Of a stretch of 24,711 bases of DNA, positions 300 through 19,034 are shown piece by piece. A program made the translations under genes and the position numbers. The stretch comes from a virus. The notes under the pieces were generated by a model. That model worked only from the letters and a program-made list of their open reading frames with translations. It did not search any database and was not told the DNA's origin. The stretch is taken from positions 1 through 24,711 of the IMG/VR virus record IMGVR_UViG_3300025577_000059. One strand, written 5' to 3'. The first letter of the stretch is position 1. Every line of letters begins with the position of its first letter.

Positions 300-1856
300 A
301 TGGATATTAACAAACTAGGATTTAAGGATTTCGTATTAACTGAAGGTATTTCATCAGGCTCTATTGAGAAAGCTACCTTTTTAATGATTAAGTATTTAAA
401 AAAGAAGACGGGTTTAAACCTTTTCGCAATGCCAGAACTAGAGCAATATAAAGGATCTGCTGGTAAAGGATTTGGTTTACGTTTGTTCGCTAATAAGAAG
501 GGTATATCCGTTCGATTAAACTTCTCTTCAACAAGAGCTCAAACGAATGCATTAACCGGATTTGATGTTTGGTTAGGAGACGGTAAACCATCAACACGAG
601 TTGAGTTTGCTAATATGACAAGCGTTGTTAAAATCCTTCCTATTGTTGCTGAAATCATTAATAACAAAGGTTCAAACAGTAAAGTAGTTTATACTATTCC
701 AGATGGAGTTCCTTTAAATGAAGGATACGCATATGGAACAGATTCCATTCTTTTAAAAGAAGCAGCGGGAGCTGGTGATGTTCCTGCAATGTTTGACGAT
801 ATTGTTGATATGATTGTATCTCCTAACTTTTCAAAAGGGAAGATCTATAGGAAATATAAAAGTGCTGGAGTTAAAGTATTCGAAGCTCTTGAAGAAGTAT
901 ATCCAAAAAACATTACCAAGCAAGGCGTTAAATATGTATTTGACGGAAAGCCCGCTGTAGTACAAAAGATCAAGAAAGATAAATCTAAAATTCTTGAAAT
1001 GATTGGCGCTAACGAAGGTAAAGTAACTAAAGGGAGTGCTAAAGAAACATATGCTGATAATTCAAATGCAGATGAGCTTTTAAATGATAGAGAACGATTA
1101 AGTTTTGAAGCTCAGTTAGAAGATCTTGAGAATCTATTGAAACTAACCGTTAATGGCGCAGCGAACGCAATCTTTATTGCTGGGCGTGGCGGAGTTGGTA
1201 AAACATTTACAACCGAAAAGATTCTTGGTGAAATGGGTTATAGAGATGGAGCTGGTTACTTTAAGAACACTGGTTCTGCTAGTGCGGCTGGTATGTATTC
1301 CCTCTTATTTAAATATAAGAATGATATTATCTTCTTTGATGATAGTGACGATGCTCTTAAAGACCAAGAAAGCCGTAACCTTTTAAAAGCTGCAACCGAT
1401 ACCAAAAAGATTCGTAAACTCGTTTGGAACAAGATGGGTAAGAATGTTGCAGAGCCTGATGAAATGACTGACGATGAAATCCTTGATGCTGGATTAATTC
1501 CACGTTACTTTGAATTCACGGGCAAGATCATCTTTATCTCTAACCTTAAGATGAACAAGCTTGATCCTGATGGCGCACTAAGAACTCGAGCATTTATTAT
1601 TGATATTGATCCAACCGAAGGCGAAATTTACGACTTTATGGATAAGATTGTCGGTAAGATTTCTTTAGAAGAAGGTTTAACTCTTGATTTAACAGAACGT
1701 AAACGAGTAGTTGATCTATTAAGAAAAGGAAAAAGTAAGCAATCATCAAACCTTCGTAAGCTATCCCGTGGTTTAAATATGGCCGCTGGAGCTTTAAAAG
1801 CAGGTGTTGCCGTTGCCGATAAAGAGTTGGCTCGTATGATTGAAATTTACGCTTAA
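300..1856 (+). CDS. AAA+ ATPase with capsid-targeting-like leader
   Basis: This 518-aa protein has a complete AAA+ core: Walker A GRGGVGKT at residues 295-302, Walker B DIIFFDD at 342-348, sensor-1 IIFISN at 410-415 and a likely arginine finger RTR at 428-430. The ~280 residues before the core are of unknown function. The N-terminus MDINKLGFKDFVLTEG resembles the capsid-targeting leader of T4 internal proteins and contains a match to the prohead protease consensus (LTE/G at 15-16). Further matches lie at LNE141/G142 and LKE154/A155, so processing could separate an N-terminal domain from the ATPase. The gene is expressed from a late promoter and heads the late cluster. No partner is visible. 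It could instead be an ordinary cytoplasmic ATPase whose leader match is fortuitous. The ATPase call is firm and packaging is an inference. Confidence 0.85.
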   Translation: MDINKLGFKDFVLTEGISSGSIEKATFLMIKYLKKKTGLNLFAMPELEQYKGSAGKGFGLRLFANKKGISVRLNFSSTRAQTNALTGFDVWLGDGKPSTRVEFANMTSVVKILPIVAEIINNKGSNSKVVYTIPDGVPLNEGYAYGTDSILLKEAAGAGDVPAMFDDIVDMIVSPNFSKGKIYRKYKSAGVKVFEALEEVYPKNITKQGVKYVFDGKPAVVQKIKKDKSKILEMIGANEGKVTKGSAKETYADNSNADELLNDRERLSFEAQLEDLENLLKLTVNGAANAIFIAGRGGVGKTFTTEKILGEMGYRDGAGYFKNTGSASAAGMYSLLFKYKNDIIFFDDSDDALKDQESRNLLKAATDTKKIRKLVWNKMGKNVAEPDEMTDDEILDAGLIPRYFEFTGKIIFISNLKMNKLDPDGALRTRAFIIDIDPTEGEIYDFMDKIVGKISLEEGLTLDLTERKRVVDLLRKGKSKQSSNLRKLSRGLNMAAGALKAGVAVADKELARMIEIYA

Positions 1857-1862
1857 TAAATA
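1855..1862 (+). promoter_or_regulatory. Late-promoter-like box AATAAATA, 5 nt before ATG 1868
   Basis: AATAAATA overlaps the TAA stop of the preceding gene and ends five bases before ATG 1868. It differs from the T4 consensus only in the first base. If it works like a T4 late promoter, +1 would fall on the A of the ATG. Confidence 0.5.
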
Positions 1863-1867
1863 ATAAT

Positions 1868-3250
1868 ATGAAATCATTTCAAACTTTCTTAATTGAGGGA
1901 ACCAAGTTAACTCCCCGTGAATTAAAAAAACCAGCTACTGGAGGGCCGAACTCTGGAGTTTCTCGCCTTGAAATTCTTTCTAATAAAATTAGAAAACAAG
2001 AACCTTTAACTTTAGCAAATGGTAAAACGTTTATTGTGACTGATACTGCTGGAGCTTTATCTTCTATTGAACAATTTAGAAAAGACGGAATGGCTTTTAA
2101 ACTAATTGGAAAAAGCGGATCGGAAATTTCATCGTCGGATCTATTAAAAACGCTTGAGTTTGGTGGTGGTACTGGAGCTGGTGGTGGAACAAAAAATACA
2201 GCAATTGGAGAATCTGCTCAATGTGTATGGATGGCCGCAATGGTTGAAATTGGATATGATAAACCAATTGAAAGTTTTACTGATGAAGTATTAACTAAAG
2301 CGTTTAAAAAGGTAAGTGTTGGAAAAACTTCGTTAAAAGATATTTTAAGTATTGATGAGAGTTGGAAAACATCCTCATATTTAACAGCACACTTCGCAAT
2401 TAAAGAGCGTCTTATTGAAAGAGATATGACTTTTCATAGAGATGATTCTCTTATGAAAGAAATTTATAAAGCTAAAAACACAGCTTTTAAAAATAACGAT
2501 TTTAAACCACTTACAGATGATAAATGGAACCCAGGCGATATTTGGGTGGCTGATTCTGACTTTAAATTATCAGAATTAAAAACTTATACACTAGAAGGAT
2601 TTAATGATGATATACTCGACTTATATTTACAAAAGAGACTTGTTGGTATTTCATTAAAGAAAGTTTCTAAAGCAGTAAAAGGAGTTGAAAAAAATGTTAC
2701 TCGTCCACCAGAAACTGAAGATTACACATTTGTAGCAGGCCATATTAAAGCGTTAACACGAGGAGAATGGTATACAAGTAAAACTAATTATATTACTTAT
2801 ATGGGCGGGCAACTAGATATTAGAGCAAACACCGGTTTTGGTTCTCATAAAGTAGAAATTAAAGGTAAAGGCGCCAGAGGAGGCGGAGCTTCTTGGGGCG
2901 TTATGTCTGATGCTGCTAAAAGAATTTATCGAAAAGAACTTCCAAAAAATAATAAAATGAAAAAAGATGCTAAACTAATAGCATCTGGTGATAAAAGAGC
3001 AGTTCAAAATTTTACTAAGTTATTACAAACCGTGGATAAAAAAATATCCAATGCAGAAGTAATAGAAAAATTAGCAAGTCTTGGCAAAAACGCTGATATA
3101 TGGGTTCACGGTAAACTAGGTGGCCTTTATGTATTACAATTAATATCAAAAGGTGGCCAAAAGGCAAATAAGTTTATTACTCAGATAATTAACTATGCTG
3201 GTAGTTCTACTTCAGACTCAAGCGCATATATTATTCTAAAAGAGAAATAA
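1868..3250 (+). CDS. Large protein of unknown function with capsid-targeting leader; possible nuclease-like core
   Basis: This is a 460-aa soluble protein. It begins MKSFQTFLIEG, very close to the T4 internal-protein leader MKTYQEFIAEA, with a prohead protease match LIE/G at residues 8-11. A glycine-rich stretch lies at 99-107 (GGGTGAGGG), followed by GESAQCVW (114-121). Further on are KWNPGDIW (219-226) and LVGISLKK (258-265). The D224...SxK264 arrangement loosely recalls the PD-(D/E)xK nuclease core with Ser in place of Glu. That is a weak pattern argument and not a recognised family. The C-terminal half is basic. An AATAAATA late box lies 5 nt before the start and there is no Shine-Dalgarno sequence. 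It follows the ATPase gene by 11 nt and is probably co-expressed late. The function is unknown. A packaged, DNA-injected protein is the best contextual guess. Confidence 0.8.
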   Translation: MKSFQTFLIEGTKLTPRELKKPATGGPNSGVSRLEILSNKIRKQEPLTLANGKTFIVTDTAGALSSIEQFRKDGMAFKLIGKSGSEISSSDLLKTLEFGGGTGAGGGTKNTAIGESAQCVWMAAMVEIGYDKPIESFTDEVLTKAFKKVSVGKTSLKDILSIDESWKTSSYLTAHFAIKERLIERDMTFHRDDSLMKEIYKAKNTAFKNNDFKPLTDDKWNPGDIWVADSDFKLSELKTYTLEGFNDDILDLYLQKRLVGISLKKVSKAVKGVEKNVTRPPETEDYTFVAGHIKALTRGEWYTSKTNYITYMGGQLDIRANTGFGSHKVEIKGKGARGGGASWGVMSDAAKRIYRKELPKNNKMKKDAKLIASGDKRAVQNFTKLLQTVDKKISNAEVIEKLASLGKNADIWVHGKLGGLYVLQLISKGGQKANKFITQIINYAGSSTSDSSAYIILKEK

Positions 3251-3265
3251 TATTATTAGTATCAA

Positions 3266-3349: not shown

Positions 3350-4930
3350 TTAATCTTCGACCCAAACCGCGGCCAAAGATACTCGAGCAAGACTTTCAGT
3401 TGATTGCACAATAAATGAAATGCTGCTATTTGGTGGAACTACAATTCTTAGATCCCCAAGATTAATCGAAGAACTTCCCCCGCCAGGTACTTCAAACATG
3501 TAAATTGGCAGATTGTTGTCAACTGTTGTGCTTACATCTCCTATAGTATCTGAATAATATACAGATGAATTTTCCTCGCTTCTTGTGTTATACTCAAGCT
3601 CAGGTAATCCATTAAAATTATAATATACTGATACAAGTACAGGCGTTCCAGCTGGATTTGTTAAGAATGCCGAATTAATATTTTTTAATAAAACTTCTCT
3701 AGTATTAATTTTATTCTTATAAATTAATCTATTATGTAAAGTTAATACATGATGATAATCATCTGCAGATAAGTTAGGGTTTTCATCATATGTAATTGAT
3801 GTAGCAGTTGGCAGTTTTGTATTTTCTATTAAACCTTCAATTGCGCCTAACATAGAACCACCTGATACATAAACATCAGTTCCAGTTCCACCTAAACTTG
3901 CAGCAATCCATCCAACCTTTAACGATGGGTTATCAACGTGAACATCATCATAATTATTTGCATATTTTATTTCATGGAAAACAATCATGTCTCCATTTAA
4001 CGGGTTTTCAATAGAGAATCTAATTTGCCCAGCACCAAGCCATCTAAAATTAATTTGGAAAACGTTTAATTTAGTTGGATTTAATATTGCTCTACTATAA
4101 CCATTACCATCAAGAGTATCACCATTAAAGTCTTCTTGGTATGTCCAATTATTAGTATGATTTACACCACCTTGAAGAACTGAAAGAGTAGCAGTAACGC
4201 CAGTTGAATCTGTATCAGAAAAAGAAAATGTTCCGGTTTTAGGCCCAACCCCAGTTGATAAAAAACAAACTTTATCAGCAACATATTCTAAAATCCAAAA
4301 ATCACTTATAATACCATGATGTATTTTTCTTGCCACATCATTGGCAGTATCTCCTGCTAAGACTGCAATAACAAAATCTTCATCATTTAATGTTACGGTA
4401 ATATTTCCAGATGTTGTGGCTGAATTACTAATAACAATATTATGAATATGGGCTTTACCTTTATTCTGTAAAAGAACTCCAAATTTATCACCATCAAAGC
4501 CAACCTGTATAGCTTGCTCTTGCGCAAAGAATCCCGCTCTTTGAGTATAACCGATGGCTCCTTCTGTAAATTGAGCAGTGAACCGTGTTAACGCGCCCTG
4601 CCCTGGTCTATATCTTACTGCTCTTTTTGATCTAATAACGCCATAACCACCCAATGAAGTTCCGGTTCTACATTCTAGTAAAGTGTTTGAGGCTATTGCA
4701 GATCCACTCTCAGATTCATAAGACTCAAATAGTCTTTCATCTAAACCATATAAACCATCCAATTGAAATACCGGCGTAATAGGAACACTCACATGTTCTC
4801 CAAATACGCTTACTGCTGAAGCGCTTGATGTTTTAACTGGATTACCATATTCATCAACCGCTAATGACGCCTCAAAAAGCGAGGTATTATCATTAAGATA
4901 ATTTTGAGAGGTTCTATTCCACTGGGCCAT
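3350..4930 (-). CDS. Virion structural / tail-fibre-like protein
   Basis: The start chosen is ATG at 4930 (MAQWNRTSQNYLND), because a TATAAATA late promoter ends exactly five bases upstream. An in-frame ATG at 4993 would extend through the promoter and into the divergent gene. The product is 526 aa, rich in Asn, Ser, Thr and Gly and poor in Lys, with many short beta-prone stretches and no enzymatic motif. RSKRAVRYRPGQGALTRF and the Gly-rich middle resemble large virion/fibre proteins of marine T4-like phages. It lies antisense within a cluster of plus-strand late genes and is expressed from its own promoter. Its stop abuts a micro-lipoprotein gene. It may be a fibre, baseplate or head-decoration component. 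The structural role is inferred from composition and remembered similarity. Confidence 0.65.
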   Translation of the reverse strand: MAQWNRTSQNYLNDNTSLFEASLAVDEYGNPVKTSSASAVSVFGEHVSVPITPVFQLDGLYGLDERLFESYESESGSAIASNTLLECRTGTSLGGYGVIRSKRAVRYRPGQGALTRFTAQFTEGAIGYTQRAGFFAQEQAIQVGFDGDKFGVLLQNKGKAHIHNIVISNSATTSGNITVTLNDEDFVIAVLAGDTANDVARKIHHGIISDFWILEYVADKVCFLSTGVGPKTGTFSFSDTDSTGVTATLSVLQGGVNHTNNWTYQEDFNGDTLDGNGYSRAILNPTKLNVFQINFRWLGAGQIRFSIENPLNGDMIVFHEIKYANNYDDVHVDNPSLKVGWIAASLGGTGTDVYVSGGSMLGAIEGLIENTKLPTATSITYDENPNLSADDYHHVLTLHNRLIYKNKINTREVLLKNINSAFLTNPAGTPVLVSVYYNFNGLPELEYNTRSEENSSVYYSDTIGDVSTTVDNNLPIYMFEVPGGGSSSINLGDLRIVVPPNSSISFIVQSTESLARVSLAAVWVED

Positions 4931-4935
4931 ACTTT

Positions 4936-4943
4936 TATTTATA
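4936..4943 (-). promoter_or_regulatory. Late promoter TATAAATA, minus strand, 5 nt before ATG 4930
   Basis: The plus strand reads TATTTATA, i.e. TATAAATA on the minus strand. It ends five bases before the ATG at 4930. By T4 spacing, +1 would be the A of the start codon. Only 2 bp separate it from the plus-strand AATAAATA at 4946-4953. Confidence 0.7.
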
Positions 4944-4945
4944 CA

Positions 4946-4953
4946 AATAAATA
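4946..4953 (+). promoter_or_regulatory. Late-promoter-like box AATAAATA, 5 nt before ATG 4959
   Basis: AATAAATA ends five bases before ATG 4959 and is back-to-back with the minus-strand late promoter at 4936-4943. The 28-bp gap between the divergent start codons therefore holds both candidate promoters. Confidence 0.5.
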
Positions 4954-4958
4954 ACTTT

Positions 4959-5393
4959 ATGAAGAGGATACGGGTATATGGTTGTTTGGACAAACCTAAG
5001 TTAAAAAAAGAAATACGTGAAGCTGCGTCTCTTTTTATTCAAGATCTTTTACCACGTAAACGCAAGTATGATATAACAATAACAATATCTTCAGGTTTAT
5101 CTAAAAAAGTAGGATCCTTTGGAGAATGCTGGTCATGGTCTCGTAATGAATATACAGTTAAGATCGACGGATCTCAAACAAAGGAAAATATTTTTAAAAC
5201 ACTTGCTCATGAATTTGTACACGTTAAACAATTCTCAGTTGGAGAATTAAAATTCTTAACTAAATTTGATGTTTGGCAAGGAACCGTATATTACCATGGA
5301 GCTAAATACGAAACTCTTCCATGGGAAAGGGAAGCAACTCAATATGAAAAAATTCTATATAACAAACATATTGTCAATAAAAGACAATTATAA
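4959..5393 (+). CDS. HExxH zinc metallopeptidase-like protein
   Basis: This 144-aa protein has a zinc-peptidase signature HEFVHVKQ at residues 84-91 (H84, E85, H88). A downstream PWEREA at 121-126 could supply the third zinc ligand (E123 or E125), the arrangement seen in small gluzincin or SprT-like proteins. The N-terminal ~75 residues are basic with beta strands (YDITITISSGL). No signal peptide or membrane segment is seen, so it probably acts in the cytoplasm or on virion proteins. It has no capsid-targeting leader. The gene diverges from the structural gene across 28 bp and stops inside the TATAAATA that precedes the ligase gene. Peptidase activity is inferred from the motif and its substrate is unknown. 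Confidence 0.75.
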   Translation: MKRIRVYGCLDKPKLKKEIREAASLFIQDLLPRKRKYDITITISSGLSKKVGSFGECWSWSRNEYTVKIDGSQTKENIFKTLAHEFVHVKQFSVGELKFLTKFDVWQGTVYYHGAKYETLPWEREATQYEKILYNKHIVNKRQL

Positions 5394-5396
5394 ATA
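5389..5396 (+). promoter_or_regulatory. Late promoter TATAAATA, 8 nt before ATG 5405
   Basis: There is an exact TATAAATA overlapping the end of the metallopeptidase gene (its TAA is 5391-5393). Eight bases separate it from ATG 5405, predicting a leader of about 3 nt. Confidence 0.65.
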
Positions 5397-5404: not shown

Positions 5405-6328
5405 ATGAAGTCCTTTAAAGAATATATTGGTGAAGCTGCTAAAACACAAAAGCAGTTCATTGCTCACCTTGATAAAATGCCACCACTCAAATTTCTTGAA
5501 CTTGCAAAACGTCTTGATAAAGAAATGGGCGGTGTTCTTTCAAAGGATAATGCTGAGATCAGAGAGAAGATGGATGGTTCAGCTCTTCGTATTGGTTTAG
5601 ATGAGAAGGGGCGATTCTTTGCTCAAACTTCTACATCGCCTTCATTTTTTAACTTTGGCGATTTTAGAAAGCGTTTTTCTAAGCATGGTGAAGAAGCCGC
5701 ACTTATGGGAGACAAGTGGGATGATATTTTTAAAATGATAAAGAGTGACTCCAAGGTTAATGCCATTCTTAAAAAGTATAATACTAAAAACGGTATTAAG
5801 GTTGTTGGAGAGATTATGTATCCTCCTCTTGGTATAGATCTAATTGATAAAATGCGATTTATTCGTATTGATTATGAGAAGAAAAAATTAGGTTCTGATT
5901 ATACCTTTGTTCCTTTTTATGTTATGGATAATGAAAATAATGTCCATCCGAAAGAAAAAGAAATCTTTAAAGAACTATACAAGATTTCAAATTCTAAACG
6001 CAAGTATGTTAATACCGTTGTTTTAAAGGATAGAGACATTAATATTAAAACGGATTTAAGTATTGTAAACAACGATCTTGTTAAGAAATATAAGAATTTA
6101 AACGCTGTATTAATATCAAGAAAACATATTGATCGTGAGTTAAAGGAAAAAATTAAAAACGAAATTTTACTTTTACAGCGTAAACTGGCCGCTAAAATAC
6201 TTTCATATGTTGATGGCGGTTTATTAGGAAAAGATTTTGAAGGTATTGTAATTAAACTTAGTGACGGATCACTAATCAAAATTATTTCTGATAAGTTTAA
6301 GAACACAACCTTTGATAAAAACCGTTAA
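5405..6328 (+). CDS. ATP-dependent RNA/DNA ligase-like nucleotidyltransferase with capsid-targeting leader
   Basis: This is a 307-aa member of the covalent nucleotidyltransferase (ligase/capping) superfamily. Motif I is K55-MDG-SALR62, where K55 would carry the AMP. A motif III-like GEIMYP lies at 135-140, motif IV DFEGIVIK at 277-284, and motif V-like LIKIISDKFK at 290-299. It ends just after motif V, so no separate OB-fold is obvious and it is closer in size to RNA ligases or minimal ligases. The N-terminus MKSFKEYIGEAAK matches the T4 capsid-targeting leader, with a protease match IGE/A at residues 8-11. It has its own TATAAATA promoter and no Shine-Dalgarno sequence. The likely reaction is sealing of nicked RNA or DNA; the substrate cannot be told. 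A ligase packaged in the head is a hypothesis. Confidence 0.82.
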   Translation: MKSFKEYIGEAAKTQKQFIAHLDKMPPLKFLELAKRLDKEMGGVLSKDNAEIREKMDGSALRIGLDEKGRFFAQTSTSPSFFNFGDFRKRFSKHGEEAALMGDKWDDIFKMIKSDSKVNAILKKYNTKNGIKVVGEIMYPPLGIDLIDKMRFIRIDYEKKKLGSDYTFVPFYVMDNENNVHPKEKEIFKELYKISNSKRKYVNTVVLKDRDINIKTDLSIVNNDLVKKYKNLNAVLISRKHIDRELKEKIKNEILLLQRKLAAKILSYVDGGLLGKDFEGIVIKLSDGSLIKIISDKFKNTTFDKNR

Positions 6329-6334
6329 TAAATA
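6327..6334 (+). promoter_or_regulatory. Late-promoter-like box AATAAATA, 8 nt before ATG 6343
   Basis: AATAAATA overlaps the TAA stop of the ligase gene (6326-6328). Eight bases separate it from ATG 6343, the same spacing as at 5405. It shares the string TTAATAAATAATAATAT with the box before ATG 1868. Confidence 0.5.
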
Positions 6335-6342: not shown

Positions 6343-7248
6343 ATGCTAGCATATAAACAATTTTTAGAAAATAAACGGCAGCTGTCTGAAGGTGGTAACG
6401 CTGTTAAAGGAGTCGGACCGATTAATCAAGAGAATTCTATTCCTACATATAATAAAATTCTTAGTGAGTTTTTGCCAAAGCTTAAACTTAAAGATAAGCA
6501 TGTAGCGAGTCTTGGCTCTACTGGTAAAAAAGGACCAAAGCAAACCTCAGGCGATATTGATATTGCTCTTGATGCTACCGAGCTTTTAAAATCAAATAAG
6601 ATTGACACATATGCAGATCTAATGGATTTTATTGTTGTTACAGTTAAATCTTTAGGATATGATTATAAAGATATGCGTAGTATTGGTATTGTTAGTATTG
6701 CATATCCAATTGTTAATGACGATAAGTTACAAGCAGATAAACTTGTTCAAGTAGACTTTATGGTTGTTGAAAATCTTAAACATGCAACATGGGCTTTTCA
6801 CAGTCCTTCATATCTTGAGTCCAATCTAAAGGGTTTATATAGAAACGAATTAAACTTTGCTGTCGCTAAATATGCTGGATTTAAAGTAACTGAAAGAAAC
6901 AAAGAAAGCAAAGAAGCCGTTACATGGCAGCGCTTTTGGTGGGATATTAAACGAGGCTTAAGTAAAGGAACACAAACTCGATTAAGTGCAAAGACTGGTA
7001 AAATTGTAAAAGGCACTAGACCGTTAACAAAAAACGATATTTCTGATGAGCCTGATGATATTGTTAAGTTCCTATATGGAGAGAAATATAAAGCAAGAGA
7101 TATTTTAACTTTTGATGATGCTCTTAATGCTATTATGAGTAATGATTTTCCTTATAAGAAACAAAGGAAGACTATTTTAAAAGCTGCATCCGAATCTATA
7201 CAAAAGAAAGGCTTCCCTATTCCGAAGCAAATGGCCAAATATATATAA
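6343..7248 (+). CDS. Pol-beta superfamily nucleotidyltransferase with capsid-targeting-like leader
   Basis: This 301-aa protein has the Pol-beta nucleotidyltransferase signature G58-S59 ... D71-I-D73, with a third carboxylate D138 in VQVDFMVV. These are the three metal-binding aspartates of minimal nucleotidyltransferases. The segment from about residue 150 to 230 (KYAGF, WQRFWWDIKRGL, LSAKTGKIVKGTRPL) looks like a basic helical domain that could bind nucleic acid. The N-terminus MLAYKQFLENKRQLSEGGN resembles a capsid-targeting leader with a protease match LSE/G at residues 14-17. It is expressed from a late box and follows the ligase by 14 nt. Transfer of NMP to an RNA, DNA or protein acceptor is plausible. 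The substrate is unknown and toxin-like MNT/HEPN behaviour is possible but without evidence here. Confidence 0.78.
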   Translation: MLAYKQFLENKRQLSEGGNAVKGVGPINQENSIPTYNKILSEFLPKLKLKDKHVASLGSTGKKGPKQTSGDIDIALDATELLKSNKIDTYADLMDFIVVTVKSLGYDYKDMRSIGIVSIAYPIVNDDKLQADKLVQVDFMVVENLKHATWAFHSPSYLESNLKGLYRNELNFAVAKYAGFKVTERNKESKEAVTWQRFWWDIKRGLSKGTQTRLSAKTGKIVKGTRPLTKNDISDEPDDIVKFLYGEKYKARDILTFDDALNAIMSNDFPYKKQRKTILKAASESIQKKGFPIPKQMAKYI

Positions 7249-7261: not shown

Positions 7262-7957
7262 ATGGAAGAATTTCAAAAAAACGATATGGCTGAAGGCCGC
7301 TCATGGAAATCTATAGGACACTATACCGCAGATGGTAAAGAGTGGGCTGGAGATCAACATGCGCATAATGGTCAAATAATGACTGGTAAGACGCATGATA
7401 AAAATAGTGTTTACTTATATCATTATAAAGAATTATCTGCTGAAGTGAGAAAAAAAATCGATGCAGAAATTGAAGAAGCAGAAAAGGATTTACGCTTACG
7501 TGACCTTGAAGTTGTTGATCCAACCGATGGCAGTTGGGGCGATGAAATGGGCTTCTTAAATCGTCGATATATGAAACGTCATAATTCGTATGTTACTGAA
7601 GATTCCGAAGACGAATGCTATAGTGAAGCGTTAACTGCTATTCAACGAATTAAGCGTAGAGCGATAATGCGTAAAAGCAAAGCGGCTATTGCTCGTGGCC
7701 GACGTCGTTCTGAAAAGAAAAAACCAACACTTAAGGTAATGAAGAATAGAGCTTTGAAAGCTGCTAGGAACCTTTTATTTAAAAAGTTGGCGGGTAAACG
7801 ATCAAAAAATGAGTTGAGCTTTTCTGAAAGATCTAGAATTGAAAAGGTTCTATCAAAAAAACAAGGGAAGATCAAAGCGATTGCTAAAAAGATTTTACCA
7901 AAATTAATCCAAAAGGAAAAAGAGAAGCGCGCTAAAAAAGCAGCAGAAAAGAAATAA
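7262..7957 (+). CDS. Highly basic DNA-binding-like protein of the late cluster
   Basis: This is a 231-aa protein in two parts. Residues ~13-60 (SIGHYTADGKEWAG, HAHNGQIMTG) form a compact domain of unknown function. Residues ~125-231 are very Lys/Arg/Ala-rich (RRAIMRKSKAAIARGRRR, ALKAARNLLFKKL, IAKKILPKLI) and predicted helical. I recall this basic helical tail from marine T4-like phages. Such a tail would bind nucleic acid, fitting an internal head protein packed with DNA. The start MEEFQKNDMAEGRSW is a weaker leader, with MAE/G at 9-12. There is no clear late box or Shine-Dalgarno sequence just before ATG 7262, so it is probably read from the 6327 promoter. Its TAA overlaps the next ATG (TAATG at 7955-7959), indicating translational coupling to the HxGH enzyme. 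Confidence 0.72.
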   Translation: MEEFQKNDMAEGRSWKSIGHYTADGKEWAGDQHAHNGQIMTGKTHDKNSVYLYHYKELSAEVRKKIDAEIEEAEKDLRLRDLEVVDPTDGSWGDEMGFLNRRYMKRHNSYVTEDSEDECYSEALTAIQRIKRRAIMRKSKAAIARGRRRSEKKKPTLKVMKNRALKAARNLLFKKLAGKRSKNELSFSERSRIEKVLSKKQGKIKAIAKKILPKLIQKEKEKRAKKAAEKK

Positions 7958-8760
7958 TGAAATCATTTAAAACATTTATTAAAGAAAAGGAAGTCAAAAC
8001 ATTGGTGACTACCTTTGGCCGTTTTAACCCGCCACATGTTGGACACGCCGTAAACTTTAAAGAGTTAGCAGCAGCAGCTAAAAAAGAAAAAGCGGATTAT
8101 AGAATTTACTCTTCGCAGTCGCAGGACGCTAAAAGGAATCCATTAGGATATGAAGAAAAAATTAAATTTCTTAGAAAGCTTTTTCCTCAACACGCTCGTA
8201 GTATTTACTTAGACAAAAAGGTTAAAAACCCATTTGATGTTGCTAAACAAGCTTATGCAGATGGTTATGAGAAACTTGTTATTGCGGTTGGGCCAGATCG
8301 TGCGAACGAATTTAAAGATATGTTATTGAAATATAACAAAGAAGGTGGTATATTTTATTTTCCTGCCGGTATTGAAATTGTTGATACTGGAAAGGGTAAA
8401 AGGATTTCAAGCGCCACTCTTATGAGAAAGTCTGCAGAAAATAATGACCTTGCAACCTTTGCTAAAAATCTTCCTAAAACATTTAAAGAAGTTGAAAAGT
8501 TATTTAATGCAGTAAGGAAAGGAATGGGTTTAAAAGAATCTACCAACTTCCGCAAACATATTGATATAAATCCAAATGAAGCGCGTGAGCGTTTTTTCAA
8601 TAAGGAAATCTTTAATGAAAATGATAAAGTTATAAGTATAAAGGATAATAAAACTTATACTATTAAAGAGCGCTTTAGTAATTACGTTAGCGCAGCTGAT
8701 GGCACCACTATTAAAAAGTTTTTTATAACAGATATAATCCCTATTAATGAAAACCCTTAA
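7957..8760 (+). CDS. HxGH nucleotidylyltransferase (NMNAT/cytidylyltransferase-like) with capsid-targeting leader
   Basis: This 267-aa protein is a class I nucleotidylyltransferase. It has GRFNPPHVGH with H27-V-G-H30 at the N-terminus, VGPDRANEF at 111-119 and the R-ISSATLMR motif at 149-157, the pattern of NMN adenylyltransferases (NadM/NadR). The reaction would be transfer of AMP or CMP to a phosphate such as NMN. The first ten residues MKSFKTFIKE are a near-perfect T4-type capsid-targeting leader with an IKE site. The C-terminal ~75 residues (from KESTNFRKHI) form an extra domain with a small beta-barrel look (DKVISIKDNKTYTIKERFSNYV) not needed for catalysis. Translation is coupled to the basic protein by TAATG. 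NAD metabolism at the onset of infection is one reading, and the substrate is not proven. Confidence 0.8.
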   Translation: MKSFKTFIKEKEVKTLVTTFGRFNPPHVGHAVNFKELAAAAKKEKADYRIYSSQSQDAKRNPLGYEEKIKFLRKLFPQHARSIYLDKKVKNPFDVAKQAYADGYEKLVIAVGPDRANEFKDMLLKYNKEGGIFYFPAGIEIVDTGKGKRISSATLMRKSAENNDLATFAKNLPKTFKEVEKLFNAVRKGMGLKESTNFRKHIDINPNEARERFFNKEIFNENDKVISIKDNKTYTIKERFSNYVSAADGTTIKKFFITDIIPINENP

Positions 8761-8902: not shown

Positions 8903-11344
8903 ATGAAAAAACTAACAGATATTTTAGAAAACAAAAATGTTATCTTAGACGAGAATAGCGATGCTAGCTTAGAAATCCTATTAAACGAAGCGGATGCCAA
9001 ACCTCCAGAAAATACTGATGTTGGTATCGTTCTTTCAAGACTATCGGATATGATTTCAATGTCAGATGATTTGTATGATACTGCATCATCACTTGAAGAG
9101 ATTGATAAGGAAACCGCCGATACTGTTGAATCCACATATAATTCTATTGATGAGTTATACGCTATGTTTGATGATAAGTATGATATCTTTAGATCTGATT
9201 TTGATATGGGAGATATTGAAATGGATGAAGATTTCCGTATTAGTTTAGATGATCTATTAAATGAAGCAACTGATGAGTTATCAGAAGCATTCTTACGTTT
9301 GCCTGGCCATTTTATTAATAACGAATTATATGGAGTAGAACGAGATCTTAATACTTTTATTAAGGGTTTGAAAAATGGTAATGATGTTAATATGAAAGAG
9401 CTTAATAAAATCATTAAGATATTACAAAGCGCTAAGAAGGAAGTTAAGAAATTCAATAAGCCTGAAGATGTTCCTGTTAGTTTTCAATATAAAAAAGAAT
9501 CTATTGACATTAATGAGTATTTCTCTAAAGCTGACTTGAAACTTATTGATAAGATGTATGACAAGAAGGGTAACCTTACTCCATTGGGAAGAAAGGTAAT
9601 GAATCATGGTAAGAAGCCAGGTGATAAAGGTTATATCGAAGAAGCAACCCGTCGAAACCAAGGGCTTACTGATTTATTCCATAACCTTGCTGCAGTTGAA
9701 AGACAACTACGTCCTAACAGCCCTATTCACAGGTTAGTTGAAAAGACTGCTGAGGGTAATTATACTGCAGAATTTAAGAAGATGCAAAAATTGGTTGCTC
9801 CTCTTGTTAAAATGTGGGATGACATTGAAGCGGACTTAGACACAGACTACCCTCGCGAATCTATTGAAGAAGCTGGAGGTGATTGGGTTGTCGTTGATTT
9901 AAATACTAAGAAGGTTACGTATGTTAAATCATATGACGCTGCTTCAAAGTATGTGAAGAAGAACGGTGGAGTAATTGCAAGCGCTGAATATTATGCTGAT
10001 AACAAAAAGAAGTTTGAAAGTGTAGATATTAATGGAGCCACTGAATTAAATGAACGGGAAGATCTCTTTAAGAAATGGAAACAACCTAACAAAGGTAATC
10101 CATTTATGTTAGTTGGCGAAAAAATCGGGTTTGATGGTCCAGGCATGATGTTTGGTAAAAAGGATCCTAAGAAACCAATCATTGGTAAGGTAACTAAAGC
10201 CTCTGCATCCCAGTTAAGTGTTACTTGGGAAAATGCTAGCAATGACTTGGCACAACGATATAAGGTTATTAATTCCAATGAATTTGAACTTTTGAAATAT
10301 GAACGCTCAATGGCAATGGATTTACCGCGTGGTGTTATGTACGTGGTTCGTTTAAAGGATCGTTTCAGAGAAGAAAAGGAAATTATTGAAGAAGACAAGT
10401 ATACCGATCTTGGTTTAAGCGTATCCCATACTCTAAACATGGCTCAAACCTTTTGGTATAAGTTAGGCGGTAAAGCTCAAATTGATCAAAAGAAATATGC
10501 TAAGCTTGAAGCTGATTATGTTAAAAGAGGTAAAGTAAAAGTAAAGCTTGATGATATTGGTAAAGTTACATTCAAGAATGTAACACACCATCTGACATTT
10601 AAAGATAAGAGTAAAGCAATGTTCCACGTTTCTGATAAACCTGGCACACCAACCGTAATCGGAAACTTCGATGCTCTTGGTGTTAACGGTAAGCGCGGTA
10701 ATATGTTCCATTCTGCTATTAAAGATAGAGATCTTGATTTAACATTTACAGAATCCATCGAAGAAGCTAAAGTTCCTAAGACAATTGAAATATCGGTTGG
10801 TGCATCAATACAAGAAGTGAAGTATACAAAAAAATCTGATATCTGGGAGCCAAAGAATAAGAAATCCCTTAAGATAACAAAAGGCGGTGAATATGTGGTT
10901 GTAGATATTGAGGATAAGTATCGAAGTGGTCTTGCTTATATCTTTAAAGCGAATGATAAAACCTATATGATAAATCATAAGGAAGTCAAAAGAGTAAACG
11001 AATCCATTGAAGAAGCCGTTTCTAGTTCAGCACTTTCAATTCTAAAGAAGGTTGGTTTTAAAGAAGCTCCAGTAGATAAGACAACAACAAAGGTTGTTAA
11101 TTCTCTTTCTGGTAAAAAACTTAAACTGACTCAACTGTTTGGTATATCAATGCGAGCTGGCAAGTGGGCTGATATCTTTGTCGGTTCTACCGAAGATGGC
11201 AAATATTTTGTGGTTGATCCATCTGGAACTACTATCTTTAATAAAGAATCTGAGTTAGTAACTGCTTTAAAGTCTGCCGCACTTGGTGAATCTATCAACC
11301 ATTTTTTAAAGGGTGGTAAAGACCTTAACGACATCATTGGTTAA
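8903..11344 (+). CDS. Putative internal-head polyprotein with repeated prohead-protease-like sites
   Basis: This 813-aa protein has no recognisable enzyme motif. It is built from unrelated-looking segments joined by repeated linkers. The strongest linker is [KREN]ESIEEA-like: RESIEE/A at 323/324, TESIEE/A at 621/622 and NESIEE/A at 704/705. Variants are YIEE/A at 247/248, LLNE/A at 29/30 and at 121/122, LSE/A at 128/129, and ESVDINGA (~372-379). Each IEE/A or LNE/A fits the (I/L)-x-E consensus of T4 gp21-type prohead proteases. Cleavage would give pieces 30-121, 122-247, 248-323, 324-621, 622-704 and 705-813. Several pieces look like small beta domains (DWVVVDLNTKKVTYV, GEYVVVDIEDKY). The N-terminal ~120 residues are acidic. 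It is the last gene of the cargo cluster, with no late box of its own, followed by a palindrome at 11354-11378. Alternatives are a scaffold or a giant internal protein. Confidence 0.7.
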   Translation: MKKLTDILENKNVILDENSDASLEILLNEADAKPPENTDVGIVLSRLSDMISMSDDLYDTASSLEEIDKETADTVESTYNSIDELYAMFDDKYDIFRSDFDMGDIEMDEDFRISLDDLLNEATDELSEAFLRLPGHFINNELYGVERDLNTFIKGLKNGNDVNMKELNKIIKILQSAKKEVKKFNKPEDVPVSFQYKKESIDINEYFSKADLKLIDKMYDKKGNLTPLGRKVMNHGKKPGDKGYIEEATRRNQGLTDLFHNLAAVERQLRPNSPIHRLVEKTAEGNYTAEFKKMQKLVAPLVKMWDDIEADLDTDYPRESIEEAGGDWVVVDLNTKKVTYVKSYDAASKYVKKNGGVIASAEYYADNKKKFESVDINGATELNEREDLFKKWKQPNKGNPFMLVGEKIGFDGPGMMFGKKDPKKPIIGKVTKASASQLSVTWENASNDLAQRYKVINSNEFELLKYERSMAMDLPRGVMYVVRLKDRFREEKEIIEEDKYTDLGLSVSHTLNMAQTFWYKLGGKAQIDQKKYAKLEADYVKRGKVKVKLDDIGKVTFKNVTHHLTFKDKSKAMFHVSDKPGTPTVIGNFDALGVNGKRGNMFHSAIKDRDLDLTFTESIEEAKVPKTIEISVGASIQEVKYTKKSDIWEPKNKKSLKITKGGEYVVVDIEDKYRSGLAYIFKANDKTYMINHKEVKRVNESIEEAVSSSALSILKKVGFKEAPVDKTTTKVVNSLSGKKLKLTQLFGISMRAGKWADIFVGSTEDGKYFVVDPSGTTIFNKESELVTALKSAALGESINHFLKGGKDLNDIIG

Positions 11345-15747: not shown

Positions 15748-15765
15748 ACAAAATGCACATTTTGT
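15748..15765. promoter_or_regulatory. 18-bp palindrome, candidate operator
   Basis: ACAAAATGCACATTTTGT is a perfect inverted repeat (8-bp arms, CA centre). It ends 11 bp before the -35 TTTACA at 15777. The position just upstream of a promoter and the symmetric form fit a dimeric regulator site. A 4-of-a-kind relative, AAATGTGC, overlaps the -35 region. Confidence 0.45.
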
Positions 15766-15776
15766 GAATTATTTTA

Positions 15777-15805
15777 TTTACAAATGTGCCTTTTTATGGT
15801 ATAAT
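15777..15805 (+). promoter_or_regulatory. Early sigma70-type promoter for the small-gene cluster
   Basis: The -35 is TTTACA (15777-15782), with a 17-bp spacer and a -10 TATAAT (15800-15805). It carries the shared decamer TATTTACAAA. It drives the 15852-17366 cluster through a C/A-rich, G-poor leader (ACCAACCAACC...ACCACCACAAA) with no Shine-Dalgarno sequence next to the ATG. Confidence 0.8.
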
Positions 15806-15851
15806 ATAACTACAGAGAGGGACACCAACCAACCCGATCAACCACCACAAA

Positions 15852-16076
15852 ATGTACAAATACACTTATACCGAACACCAGCAGAATCCCCCTTCACTTG
15901 GAGGCGATTGGGAATGCGGCACCGAGACCACGATCTGCTTCTCAAGAAGCCCAAAGAAGGCCTGTAAGTTGGATGGCACGGTTCTCCGCAAATTCGAGGG
16001 CGTCGATGGATGTCCAATCATGAGCTTCGAAAAGCTGGAGCTCAATGGTAAGGTCATTTTCGATCGCACTCACTAA
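15852..16076 (+). CDS. Small protein of unknown function, GC-rich codon use
   Basis: This 74-aa soluble protein is the first gene after the 15777 promoter. Its sequence begins MYKYTYTEHQQNPPSLGGDW and has four Cys at scattered positions (WECG, TICF, KKACKL, DGCPI). The pattern could bind a metal but is not a known knuckle. Its codon use is clearly richer in G and C than its neighbours (many GGC, ATC, GAG, CTC, CGC), suggesting recent acquisition or a need for high early expression. An overlapping frame at 15764-15967 begins upstream of the promoter and is rejected. The function is unknown. Confidence 0.6.
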   Translation: MYKYTYTEHQQNPPSLGGDWECGTETTICFSRSPKKACKLDGTVLRKFEGVDGCPIMSFEKLELNGKVIFDRTH

Positions 16077-16747: not shown

Positions 16748-16764
16748 AAACCATTAATTATATT

Positions 16765-16983: not shown

Positions 16984-16985
16984 TT

Positions 16986-17159: not shown

Positions 17160-17168
17160 TATAATAAT

Positions 17169-17366: not shown

Positions 17367-17369
17367 AAC

Positions 17370-17438
17370 GGGGGTGTAAAAGAATTCGACGCTAGTTTCG
17401 GCTAACGGACCCGGGCGCGATACCCGGCACCTCCACCA
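17370..17438 (+). ncRNA. tmRNA-like mini RNA (tRNA-like domain only)
   Basis: This 69-nt element combines both ends of tmRNA. The 5' strand GGGGGTG (17370-17376) pairs with CACCTCC (17428-17434) in a 7-bp acceptor stem that includes a G3-U70 wobble, the alanyl-tRNA synthetase identity pair, followed by A73 and an encoded CCA. The 5' part reads AATTCGACG, the conserved D-region signature of tmRNA. The 3' part has GGAC then a perfect 5-bp T-stem (CCGGG/CCCGG) with a 7-nt loop. Between them only a short imperfect stem GCTAG/CTAAC with loop TTTCGG remains. There is no tag reading frame, no pseudoknots and no D-stem. The T-loop CGCGATA departs from the usual TTCRANT. A rho-independent terminator follows within 10 nt. 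It could be a decoy for SmpB/AlaRS, a degraded tmRNA, or a recombination remnant. Confidence 0.65.
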
Positions 17439-17446
17439 TTTAAAAT

Positions 17447-17486
17447 AAAAACACCCGCTCTGAATTAAACCAGGGCGGGTGTTTTT
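17447..17486. terminator. Bidirectional rho-independent terminator
   Basis: ACACCCGCTCTG pairs with CAGGGCGGGTGT (12 bp with one G-U) around an 8-nt loop, flanked by AAAA and TTTT that extend the stem. It has T-runs on both strands, so it ends the plus-strand transcript containing the tmRNA-like RNA and the converging minus-strand genes. Confidence 0.88.
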
Positions 17487-17503
17487 CTAAATATATATAT
17501 ATC

Positions 17504-17857
17504 TTACTTAACGTTTGGCTCGTCTTTTTCTGTTGAGTATTCTGCTAAAAACTCTCTTAATTCATTAATGTCATTTGCGTTTAAGCTCATGAATGTTCTT
17601 CGGGCCGAACCAGATGTGCGGCTTTCACTAACCTTTTCAATCTCTAAACATTTACGAGTGCCTAACTTTGATTCCAATTCATCAGGGCCAATAAATTCAA
17701 GAAGCTTAAATGTGGAGTTTGCATGTGTTCCTCCATCTTCCCATCCAGCCAATTCGGTTTTTTCAAGCAGAACCTTTGCTTCTTCTTTAATGGGTTTACC
17801 CTCAAGAATCGCCTTAGCCGCATCTTCAAGCCTTTTGTTTTTATTTGATAGATTCAT
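17504..17857 (-). CDS. MNLSNKN-leader late protein, paralogue A
   Basis: This 117-aa protein starts with the leader MNLSNKNKRLEDAAKAILEG shared with two neighbours. The leader ends in a prohead-protease match ILE/G (residues 17-20). The body contains FIGPDELESKLGTRK (55-69), which matches FAGPKDLEDKIGTRK in the 18196-18624 protein, so these two are paralogues over both leader and body. The C-terminus is acidic. It is the last gene of a minus-strand operon, three bases after the preceding stop, with no promoter of its own, and faces the bidirectional terminator. The function is unknown. A packaged head protein is suggested by the leader only. Confidence 0.68.
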   Translation of the reverse strand: MNLSNKNKRLEDAAKAILEGKPIKEEAKVLLEKTELAGWEDGGTHANSTFKLLEFIGPDELESKLGTRKCLEIEKVSESRTSGSARRTFMSLNANDINELREFLAEYSTEKDEPNVK

Positions 17858-17860
17858 ATA

Positions 17861-18199
17861 TTAAATTTTTTCTATTGAAGTAATGTTTGGATAGTTTGGT
17901 TTATTACTTAGAACTACTTTAACTTTATCTCCTGCTTTATACTTCTTGCTAAGCTTTGGATCAAAACCGAATTCGGCTTTCATACCGCTCTTGTTTTTCT
18001 TGTCATACCCTTTGAAAGTCATAACCCAGGCTTTACCAAACTTACCAGGCGATCTTTGAACTTGTGAAACGCTAGAAATCGTAAGATCCAATTCCTTTCC
18101 GAGATTCTTATTAAGAAAATCATCGTGAATAATTGCATTCTCACTCATAATTGCCTTTGCCGCTTCTTCAAGGCTGTTATTTCTATTTGATAAGTTCAC
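17861..18199 (-). CDS. MNLSNRN-leader late protein with unrelated body
   Basis: This 112-aa protein starts at GTG 18199, which overlaps the upstream TGA (GTGA), indicating translational coupling. Its first 18 residues MNLSNRNNSLEEAAKAIM follow the leader of its two neighbours, but the cleavage-like end is MSE/N rather than ILE/G. The body differs completely. It is a basic, beta-rich domain (LDLTISSVSQVQRS, KAWVMTFKGYDKKNKSG, YKAGDKVKVVLSNKPNYPNI) resembling a small OB- or KOW-like barrel that could bind nucleic acid. A shared leader on different bodies supports a targeting role for the leader. Confidence 0.66.
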   Translation of the reverse strand: MNLSNRNNSLEEAAKAIMSENAIIHDDFLNKNLGKELDLTISSVSQVQRSPGKFGKAWVMTFKGYDKKNKSGMKAEFGFDPKLSKKYKAGDKVKVVLSNKPNYPNITSIEKI

Positions 18200-18624
18200 T
18201 TGATCTTATTTAAAAGTTTTTGTAGAACGTCAACGTCAGACATATTAAGTTCAATATACTTTTTGCCAATTGTAATTTGTACCATTTTACGTGTACCAAT
18301 TTTATCTTCAAGATCCTTTGGACCAGCAAATTGTGTTAGTTCAGCATATTCATTGGCAGTTCTTCCAGCACTAGTCCAAGCTTTAATTTTAGTAGCTTCA
18401 TCAATTTCAACACCTTCTTTAATCTTTTTACCTTTAAGCTTCATTAAAACTTTAATGATAACCTTTGGGCCAAAGCCCGCTTGCATTAGAGCGTTATTAA
18501 TATCTTCCCAACGATAGGCGTCACCGTTAACTTCTTGAAGAGTTTCTTCAATTTCAATAGTGTTGCCTTCGAGAATTGCTTTAGCAACATTTTCTAAAGC
18601 TTCATTTTTATTTGATAGGTTCAT
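18196..18624 (-). CDS. MNLSNKN-leader late protein, paralogue B
   Basis: This 142-aa protein opens the operon at ATG 18624, 23 nt after a TATAAATA on the minus strand (with CATAAATA nearer). Its leader is MNLSNKNEALENVAKAILEG with ILE/G at 17-20. A middle segment (residues 36-70, AYRWEDINNALMQAGFG, KVIIKVLMKLKGKKI) ends at another protease-like site, GVEIDE/A at 76/77. The remainder includes FAGPKDLEDKIGTRK (99-113), shared with the 17504-17857 protein. It thus looks like a two-domain version of that paralogue with an internal cleavage site. The function is unknown. Confidence 0.68.
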   Translation of the reverse strand: MNLSNKNEALENVAKAILEGNTIEIEETLQEVNGDAYRWEDINNALMQAGFGPKVIIKVLMKLKGKKIKEGVEIDEATKIKAWTSAGRTANEYAELTQFAGPKDLEDKIGTRKMVQITIGKKYIELNMSDVDVLQKLLNKIK

Positions 18625-18633
18625 TGTTTATTA

Positions 18634-18641
18634 TATTTATG
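18634..18641 (-). promoter_or_regulatory. Second late-box-like CATAAATA, minus strand
   Basis: CATAAATA on the minus strand ends nine bases before ATG 18624, downstream of the exact TATAAATA at 18648-18655. Its position is close to the 5/8-nt spacing seen at other late genes. Confidence 0.35.
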
Positions 18642-18647
18642 TATAGT

Positions 18648-18655
18648 TATTTATA
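18648..18655 (-). promoter_or_regulatory. Late promoter TATAAATA for the MNLSNKN operon
   Basis: Exact TATAAATA on the minus strand, 23 bases before ATG 18624, in the gap between two minus-strand genes. It resembles the 270-277 promoter in spacing to its gene. Confidence 0.65.
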
Positions 18656-18659
18656 AAAG

Positions 18660-19034
18660 TTAATCCTTTTCAGCATCTGCGCCTTCACGAGTTTTCTTTG
18701 ACATTTTTATTGCCCAATCAACGCCAGGATCGCCACCCCAACCAAGCCAGGCCATATATCCATTATCTGTCCATGGGCGGTCTTTCTTTTCAGGGGAAAT
18801 TTTAGAGTTTTTTCTATGCCTATTAAATGATGCCATTCTTTTTAATATATCATAAGAGATCTCATCTCCATCAGCAAGTTGGCGAGCTCTTACCCATCCA
18901 GTGCGAGTCATTGCTTTAACTTCATTAGGGTATTGCTCTTTCCATTTAATAGCTTTCTTTGCAGCCGCAACCGCACCAGCAGGAGGCTGAAACTTTCTTT
19001 CTTCCTCTTTGATAAAATCTTTAAACGGGATCAT
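18660..19034 (-). CDS. Small phage protein with NGYMAWLGWGG domain and capsid-targeting-like leader
   Basis: This 124-aa protein begins MIPFKDFIKEEERKF, close to the T4-type leader, with a match to the IxE core (IKE at 8-10, followed by E rather than A/G). The body matches a small domain I recall from many phages: PPAGAVAAAKKAIKWKEQYP, then RTGWVRARQLADGDEIS, ILKRMASFNRH and PWTDNGYMAWLGWGG (88-101). The domain is often found near head or maturation-protease genes, but its biochemical role is not known to me. A TATAAATA on the minus strand ends eight bases before the ATG. It ends 35 nt before the MNLSNKN operon. Confidence 0.75.
   Translation of the reverse strand: MIPFKDFIKEEERKFQPPAGAVAAAKKAIKWKEQYPNEVKAMTRTGWVRARQLADGDEISYDILKRMASFNRHRKNSKISPEKKDRPWTDNGYMAWLGWGGDPGVDWAIKMSKKTREGADAEKD

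Follow-up and report, generated by a model that had tools for sequence, protein, structure and literature searches.

Does a T4-like phage stock its head with enzymes that are delivered together with its DNA? This question is raised by a 24,711-nucleotide stretch of viral DNA (IMG/VR record IMGVR_UViG_3300025577_000059, positions 1 to 24,711; here called the window). An earlier note listed 11 of its genes as encoding proteins with short capsid-targeting leaders, with starts at 300, 1868, 5405, 6343, 7262, 7957 and 8903 on the plus strand and at 19034, 18624, 18199 and 17857 on the minus strand. All 11 ORFs are present at these starts, which serve as gene names below; that of 18199 has a GTG start codon. 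Because related-phage enzymes with the same tag are found in purified virus particles, this marine T4-like phage probably delivers a set of finished proteins into the host along with its DNA.

In the T4 capsid-targeting leader (CTS), residues 4 and 7 act in targeting and residues 8 and 10 in processing, and gp21 cuts after L/I-x-E (as given in the available portion of PMC9026906). A strict form of this signal, M..[FY]..[FY][ILVM].E at a start codon among the first 31 codons, occurs in 4 of the 37 ORF-genes of the window (1868, 5405, 7957 and 19034) versus none of 132 internal methionines. With five phage genomes added to the window, the counts are 15/1,205 ORF-genes versus 0/5,036 internal methionines. 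The control proteins T4 IPII and IPIII are recovered; T4 IPI (MKTFKEFTST) is missed. The four window proteins have F/Y at position 4, F/Y at 7, a hydrophobic residue at 8 and E at 10. The leader of 300 is a shifted version of the signal, and that of 6343 is probably a shifted version with a partial match. The pattern was sought and not found in 7262, 8903 and the three remaining minus-strand genes, which have a different common leader (MNLSNK); these five are not classed as CTS members. The near-direct matches to T4 internal-protein leaders that had been described, for four leaders, hold. An (I/L/M)-x-E site, which had been noted in most of the proteins, ends by residue 20 in all 11, and in 8 of them such a site has A or G next. 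Among 185 other genes of G001, a near-identical relative of this phage (170.7 kb), the site lies within the first 20 residues in 49, with A or G next in 5, a comparison that is post hoc because the named genes were picked partly for this feature.

Gene 300 (300..1856, plus strand) encodes a 518-aa P-loop ATPase-like protein (phrog_1250) with the leader MDINKLGFKDFVLTE/G (nt 300-344; the slash marks the predicted cut). Its orthologs carry a [FYL]-[KT]-x-[FY]-[LIV]...E leader in all 43 loci read (of 80 fetched). The 460-aa product of 1868 (1868..3250, plus strand; phrog_1462) has the leader MKSFQTFLIE/G (nt 1868-1897), the core of which is present in 37/37 close loci. In a distant clade the leader is absent from 10/10 loci, which begin at the predicted cut. 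The predicted structure of this protein has a pLDDT of 84, and residues 1-10 make up one of its three stretches with a pLDDT under 50. The model has no match in the PDB at an E-value of 0.001 or better, and the idea that the protein is a nuclease was abandoned.

Gene 5405 (5405..6328, plus strand; leader MKSFKEYIGE/A, nt 5405-5434) encodes a 307-aa RNA-ligase-like protein, and neither it nor the 18624 protein has a relative in the phage records searched. Homology between the 5405 protein and the DUF6267 protein of C48C1 is unsupported (E-value: 0.013), so a ligase-like label for DUF6267 would rest on a KxDG motif. The 301-aa protein of 6343 (6343..7248, plus strand; leader MLAYKQFLENKRQLSE/G, nt 6343-6390) has no family match. 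Both of its Lak-phage homologs that were read lack the leader and begin at the predicted cut. A single-sequence structure of this protein was set aside (pLDDT 49.5), and homology to the virion protein S-CREM2 ORF156 is unsupported (E-value: 0.26). Since some homologs of 1868 and 6343 are leaderless and start at the predicted cut, the leader is a module.

Gene 7957 (7957..8760, plus strand; leader MKSFKTFIKE/K, nt 7957-7986) encodes a 267-aa homolog of T4-GC190 (phrog_395), predicted to be a cytidylyltransferase/NMNAT. Among its IMG/VR homologs, F..[FY][LIVM].E precedes the FGRxNPP motif in 61/80 and F..[FYW] is present in 79/80; the full leader core is lacking in 19/80. The remaining strict leader, MIPFKDFIKE/E, belongs to the 124-aa protein of 19034 (18660..19034, minus strand), part of phrog_2859. 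The enzyme names proposed earlier differ in footing: that of 7957 comes from a CTP_transf_like match above the Pfam cut-off (29.1 bits versus 21), ATPase and RNA ligase come from sub-threshold Pfam matches, and nucleotidyltransferase for 6343 comes from what is presumably a pol-beta-like motif.

Most of these genes had been described as read from late boxes. For 6 of the 11, the 45 nt upstream contain the box [TAC]ATAAATA: as TATAAATA before 300 (270..277, plus strand), 5405 (5389..5396, plus strand), 18624 (18648..18655, minus strand) and 19034 (19043..19050, minus strand), and as the variant AATAAATA before 1868 (1855..1862, plus strand) and 6343 (6327..6334, plus strand). An upstream scan of 7262, 7957, 8903, 18199 and 17857 found no late box of their own. 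Exact TATAAATA is not above chance in the whole window (7 found versus 4.5 expected). In G001, [TAC]ATAAATA precedes 44/202 genes (2.2 expected), including 6/7 genes with an F..F leader versus 38/195 others (p = 4.7e-4).

The machinery that such leaders would need is encoded by G001, which has a Peptidase_S77 prohead protease (E-value: 1e-42), a T4_CASP scaffold (E-value: 2e-57) and a Gp23 capsid protein (E-value: 1e-132). The gp21, gp22 and gp23 types are read from this relative, the window being a fragment without those genes. In the proposed mechanism, proteins would be made late in infection bearing a brief tag at the N-terminus (core F-x-x-F/Y-[L/I]-x-E), which would bind the gp22-type scaffold core as the head assembles. 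At head maturation a gp21-type protease would cut after E, and the mature protein would stay in the head with the DNA and be ejected with it when the next host is infected. This cargo would comprise the P-loop ATPase-like, RNA-ligase-like and cytidylyltransferase/NMNAT-like proteins and a basic protein, along with what is probably another nucleotidyltransferase. The 8903 product, a proposed polyprotein, would be cut at several sites. Once injected, the cargo would most likely act early, in nucleic-acid or NAD repair and in counter-defence.

Independent support for packaging comes from virion mass spectrometry published for related cyanophages, five phages in all. In the S-CREM2 virion table, leaders are found on a SAM hydrolase (MKDFDSFLEE), a kinase with a GTG start (VKRFDAFLTEE), a Cas9-like nuclease (...RFASFMAEA) and a cytidylyltransferase (MKNFSSFLTEA). 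They are likewise found on the virion NMNAT of S-SCSM1 (MKSFLQFLKEA), the virion nucleotidyltransferase of S-SZBM1 (MRFRQFIIEA) and the virion T4-GC190 of S-SM1 (MKKFSAFLNEA). The S-CRM01 kinase, whose sequence was read here, has the leader MISFDQFLSEK; its presence in virions is as cited in PMC10665884. These tables agree with the earlier statement that the enzyme set is wider than that of classical internal proteins. The S-SZBM1 cytidylyltransferase is in the virion table, unlike the adjoining DUF6267 protein, which is leaderless (its Pfam match begins at residue 4). Degenerate leaders occur in the kinases of S-N03 and S-B68 and in two cargo genes of Melnitz, and the available text of the S-CREM1 paper names no NMNAT among 14 virion proteins.

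The same tables could be explained by contamination, the proteins being abundant late cytoplasmic enzymes whose leaders have some other role or none. Carry-over is allowed for in both the S-CREM2 (PMC10665884) and the S-SCSM1 (PMC9602691) paper, and two orthologous small proteins with strict leaders, S-SCSM1_30 and S-SZBM1_191, are missing from the virion lists. Such carry-over is nevertheless an improbable explanation, as the S-CREM2 table is without DNA polymerase, ribonucleotide reductase and helicases yet holds four leader-bearing enzymes of different families, and the leader is conserved at the very positions on which the T4 signal has been shown to depend. Pooled over three proteomes, a leader core starting at residue 2-6 is found in 5/123 detected proteins versus 2/553 other ORFs (p = 0.003, uncorrected, for one of three patterns tried); for S-SCSM1 alone, the fixed pattern gives 1/47 versus 1/221 (p = 0.32). 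A leader position-weight score applied to whole proteomes fails to tell virion proteins from the rest (AUC 0.58, 0.48 and 0.47; one-sided p = 0.054, 0.64 and 0.72). Fixed patterns were used because most virion proteins are leaderless tail and shell parts and the score could be taken from many start positions.

Alternatively, the leader might serve to dock the proteins on some other late complex (clamp, tail, portal or membrane). In favour of this, the shared part is confined to about the first 10 residues, and the related phage HTVC008M, also of the Kyanoviridae, manages without such leaders (strict pattern in 0/190 ORF-genes). This explanation has little likelihood given that these leaders have the T4 CTS sequence, with IPII and IPIII caught by the same pattern, that the prohead-protease consensus closes the core at the point where leaderless homologs begin, and that leader-bearing enzymes are present in virions. 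The leaders are thus read as T4-type capsid-targeting propeptides on cargo that is packaged, trimmed by the prohead protease and injected, with a probability of roughly 0.8. Capsid targeting of 300, 1868, 5405, 6343, 7957 and 19034 is well supported by motif specificity, ortholog leader conservation (300, 1868 and 7957), leader-sized loss (1868 and 6343), the gp21 and gp22 types in the relative and the published proteomes. The evidence points strongly to packaging of the leader-bearing proteins in this phage; leader cleavage and cargo injection are inferred.

The other five named genes have leaders of another type, and their products may be targeted to the capsid too. Gene 7262 (7262..7957, plus strand) encodes a 231-aa basic protein (pI 10) with the weak leader MEEFQKNDMAE/G; it has homologs in the same position, themselves basic, in C48C1 (leader MLSFKQFVSE) and in Melnitz. 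The MNLSNK leader, distinct from the CTS and ending in an (I/L/M)-x-E site, is common to the minus-strand genes 18624 (18196..18624, 142 aa, MNLSNKNEALENVAKAILE/G), 18199 (17861..18199, 112 aa, MNLSNRNNSLEEAAKAIMSE/N) and 17857 (17504..17857, 117 aa, MNLSNKNKRLEDAAKAILE/G).

Gene 8903 (8903..11344, plus strand) encodes an 813-aa modular protein with seven [LI].E[AG] sites versus 1.15 expected, a result obtained in 16/100,000 shuffles; its copy in G001 has 7 versus 0.88 expected (1/100,000 shuffles). Among close relatives, whole blocks are gained or lost at joints, most of them ESIEEA, whose sequence is compatible with the protease consensus. On comparison of the copies, these joints are IEEA at residues 245-248 (9635..9646) and ESIEEA at residues 319-324 (9857..9874), 617-622 (10751..10768; opening a block missing from the other four copies) and 700-705 (11000..11017), all on the plus strand. 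One tentative reading is that 8903 is a modular cargo polyprotein, with small effector domains set on joints (mostly ES-I-E-E-A) that the prohead protease would cut inside the head, so that one gene would yield several injected proteins and relatives would swap effectors at the joints. This cleavable cargo train appears to be a new proposal here. The joints may equally plausibly be recombination seams or flexible linkers. Recombination is aided by repeats near domain borders, the protein lacks an F..F leader and is known here from its sequence alone, and a scan for these sites also places unrelated proteins high when run on S-CREM2 and S-SCSM1. Against seams or linkers, the joint copies differ at synonymous positions, and a genome-wide scan of G001 for [LI].E[AG] ranks the 8903 copy alongside the protease and scaffold; six of seven control motifs flag 0 genes, and a single different gene is picked out by the reversed motif.

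Earlier reports of cyanophage virions list kinases, NMNAT-like enzymes, a SAM hydrolase and a Cas9-like protein, and leave room for contamination. Leaders of the T4 targeting type would account for the entry of these enzymes and would offer a sequence rule for predicting which proteins abundant ocean phages inject. If 8903 is indeed a polyprotein, prohead-protease sites turn one gene into several delivered effectors, counter-defence cargo becomes easy to find and test, and 8903 together with three leader families would form a general system by which marine T4-like phages could deliver arbitrary enzymes.

What the system has in common with T4 IPI-IPIII and Alt is an N-terminal propeptide of 10-19 residues, with aromatic residues at positions 4 and 7, L/I at 8 and E at 10, a protease of the gp21 type, a scaffold of the gp22 type and cargo that varies. 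Unlike the T4 internal proteins, the cargo is mostly enzyme-like and includes a multi-site modular protein, there are extra leader families (MNLSNK and MSTEKYLLPNEKK), and ortholog leaders often have a few extra residues in front. The cyanophage virion NMNAT/cytidylyltransferase (T4-GC190), detected in S-SM1, S-SCSM1, S-SZBM1 and S-CREM2, is the homolog of 7957. No targeting leader is named for this enzyme or the virion kinases in the main text of PMC10665884 ("leader" and "targeting": 0 hits) or in PMC9602691 ("targeting" and "N-terminal": 0 hits). In phage P1, the N-terminal 30 residues of DarB send a reporter into the capsid (available part of PMC9024508); P1 differs in that no separate scaffold is identified, and the likeness to DarB is drawn without a signal-sequence comparison. 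The polyvalent proteins of Iyer et al. (2017) are also multidomain and thought to be injected with the DNA, but any processing described for them is by their own peptidase domain (available part of PMC5512222), whereas 8903 has prohead-protease-type sites between its blocks.

The 24.7-kb record is from a T4-like marine phage, and all 11 genes named in the earlier note are indeed open from their assigned starts (300, 1868, 5405, 6343, 7262, 7957 and 8903 on the plus strand; 19034, 18624, 18199 and 17857 on the minus strand). Several window proteins are 98-100% matched in G001, a 170.7-kb near-identical relative (IMGVR_UViG_3300025876_000006). G001 also carries head genes that are absent from the window, encoding a Peptidase_S77 prohead protease, a T4-type scaffold and Gp23. 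Leader-gene content differs between these close relatives (window 18624-18660 versus G001 133080-133733), as G001 has additional genes here, one with the start MISFKHFISEA. A NYFIYKCAFLWYNITTERDTNQ-like start is found at window 15764-15967 and elsewhere in G001 (30749; weaker likeness at 95307), and is possibly a shared or mobile 5' element. A large gene on the opposite strand inside the cargo cluster (window 3350-4993, minus) has no Pfam match, appears fibre-like by eye and has a late box directly upstream of an internal ATG.

The leader, which resembles the T4 capsid-targeting sequence (core F..[FY][LI].E, predicted cut after E), is real. Across the window and five phage genomes, 15 ORF-genes out of 1,205 begin with a strict T4-like pattern (an aromatic residue at 4 and 7, a hydrophobic one at 8 and E at 10, with a start within the first 31 codons), against none of the 5,036 internal methionines; the window alone has four in 37 ORF-genes. 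The same search recovered the controls T4 IPII and IPIII and missed T4 IPI. It also matches the start (MKTFKEFIKED) of T4 gp61.1, a 54-aa hypothetical protein whose gene adjoins that of the primase (T4 18966-19130, minus strand). All 37 close loci of 1868 orthologs retain the core F..F[LI].E[AG], with variation in the preceding residues. The same kind of core is present in all 43 orthologs of the 300 ATPase that were read (43 of at least 80), a few having L or Y for the first F. Among the 80 listed matches to 7957, F..[FYW] precedes an FGRxNPP motif in 79 and the full core does so in 61, most others being shorter (e.g. SFKQFxEE).

The leader is a module whose end is the predicted cut. All 10 loci of a distant clade of 1868 homologs, several of them almost the same in sequence, have an ORF with no more than 1-3 codons ahead of the ATG of MA[TN]NLG, which in leader-bearing relatives comes after the predicted cut. 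A TATAAATA box is directly upstream at nine of these loci; the displayed sequence of the tenth ended short. Alignments to 6343 homologs of Lak megaphages begin at residue 17 among the matches listed, and the two homologs read have an ATG at the alignment start, a few codons past a stop. The DUF6267 protein has an F..F leader in the phage records C48C1, Melnitz and L099. The S-SZBM1 version lacks a leader, its sequence beginning almost directly with the domain (match from residue 4), and that of S-SM1 opens with 20 residues that do not fit the leader pattern. AlphaFold gives a good model of the 1868 protein apart from three short stretches, the first of which is residues 1-10.

Published cyanophage virion proteomes provide an independent test. 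The virion table of PMC10665884 lists four S-CREM2 enzymes that are not encoded among the tail genes, and all four carry the leader: a SAM hydrolase, an APH/ChoK-like kinase, a Cas9-like nuclease and a cytidylyltransferase. Variants are found on the virion-detected ORF136 (F for L/I) and ORF13 (L for the first F). Two detected endolysins lack a leader and were set aside because they are encoded among tail genes. Leaders are also present on the NMNAT listed for S-SCSM1 virions, the cytidylyltransferases listed for those of S-SZBM1 and S-SM1, and an S-CRM01 kinase placed in the virion by the text of PMC10665884. With three proteomes pooled (50/52, 47/48 and 26/30 listed proteins placed on ORFs), 5 of the 123 detected ORFs have a core that starts at residue 2-6, compared with 2 of the 553 others (p = 0.003); two other core definitions gave 4 versus 2 (p = 0.012) and 6 versus 3 (p = 0.0017). 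The two undetected ORFs are orthologous small proteins, S-SCSM1_30 (44203-44535) and S-SZBM1_191 (18312-18629), with the strict leaders MKTFKQFMSESVNISGDF and MKSFKSFLSESVNISGDF, and are absent from both virion lists. A weight-matrix leader score over all proteins did not separate the listed virion proteins from the others. Among the open-licence papers listed, none links leaders of this kind to cyanophage virion enzymes in its title or the opening of its abstract.

The 8903 protein contains seven [LI].E[AG] sites against 1.15 expected (16 of 100,000 shuffles reach seven), and seven are also present in its G001 copy, where 0.88 are expected (1 of 100,000). Scoring covered the eight of 202 G001 genes that have at least three sites: the prohead protease, scaffold and 8903-protein copy ranked highest, and 0.005 was passed by a fourth gene as well (159997). 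No G001 gene was flagged by six control motifs (for one of these there was none to score), and reversing the motif flagged one different gene. In C48C1, the scaffold and protease come first. The scan is less clean in two further phages: the S-CREM2 ranking is headed by the protease and a long tail fibre, with a weak result for the scaffold (p 0.085), and the S-SCSM1 scaffold is third behind two other small proteins. Five copies of the 8903 protein (813, 624 and three of 626 aa) show four block differences, bordered by (ES)IEEA in three and by the variants ESVDI and IEED in one. Such features would fit a putative cargo train that is processed inside the head. Alternatively, the joints could be linkers.

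Two other leader families are present. MNLSNK genes number three in the window (18624, 18199 and 17857) and four in G001. Different paralogs have 9-17 of the first 20 residues in common, with the remainder 21-37% identical where it aligns. In one pair, G133080 and W18196 (window 18196-18624, minus), the cargo is common as well (51/78). The three MSTEKYLLPNEKK genes of G001 are alike in this, with 15-17 of 20 leader residues in common versus 22-30% for the rest. Each of the two leader types finishes at an (L/I/M)-x-E site or close to one. The same logic fits them, yet by sequence they are not T4 capsid-targeting leaders. Late boxes in G001 are upstream of 6/7 F..F-leader genes and of 8/17 leader genes of all types together. 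In 36 of the 44 G001 genes with a [TAC]ATAAATA late box, the box ends at most 9 nt before the ATG, a spacing that would make many of the late mRNAs all but leaderless.

The route proposed for cargo proteins is that the leader would carry the protein into the scaffold, the protease would trim the leader and the mature enzyme would exit with the DNA. The cargo types (NMNAT-like, ligase-like, ATPase-like and nucleotidyltransferase-like) suggest an early role in immediate NAD and nucleic-acid repair or in counter-defence. The cytidylyltransferase has a long additional region (L099 13080-15035; L004 14914-16866), which is DUF5824 in Melnitz and contains a P-loop-like GGPGSGKS motif in L099, so this cargo may combine two enzymes. 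In the nucleotidyltransferases of S-SCSM1 and P-SSM2 and in the Cas9-like protein of S-CREM2 (L123 9704, L005 11653 and L130 7704-10313), the leader is followed by an LGLxxDGHG...VA+T-like block, possibly a second shared cargo module.

The residues that define the strict pattern are the same as those reported for T4 IPIII, in which residues 4 and 7 matter for targeting and 8 and 10 for processing (PMC9026906). The window, C48C1 and Melnitz have homologous basic proteins adjoining the cytidylyltransferase (E-values: 4e-10 and 1e-8); two of the three Melnitz leaders are degenerate. A DUF6267 protein precedes the basic protein in C48C1 and Melnitz, whereas the window has ligase-like and nucleotidyltransferase-like proteins there. 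The window ligase-like protein has no clear homology to the C48C1 DUF6267 protein. The window start matches the P-SSM2 gp41 helicase gene, and both ribonucleotide reductase subunits are encoded after the cargo cluster. In the S-SCSM1 record, seven genes marked as virion proteins (89-93, 95 and 97) are flanked by a DnaB-type helicase gene on one side and by the primase and ribonucleotide reductase genes on the other, and the window cargo cluster likewise lies between helicase and ribonucleotide reductase genes.
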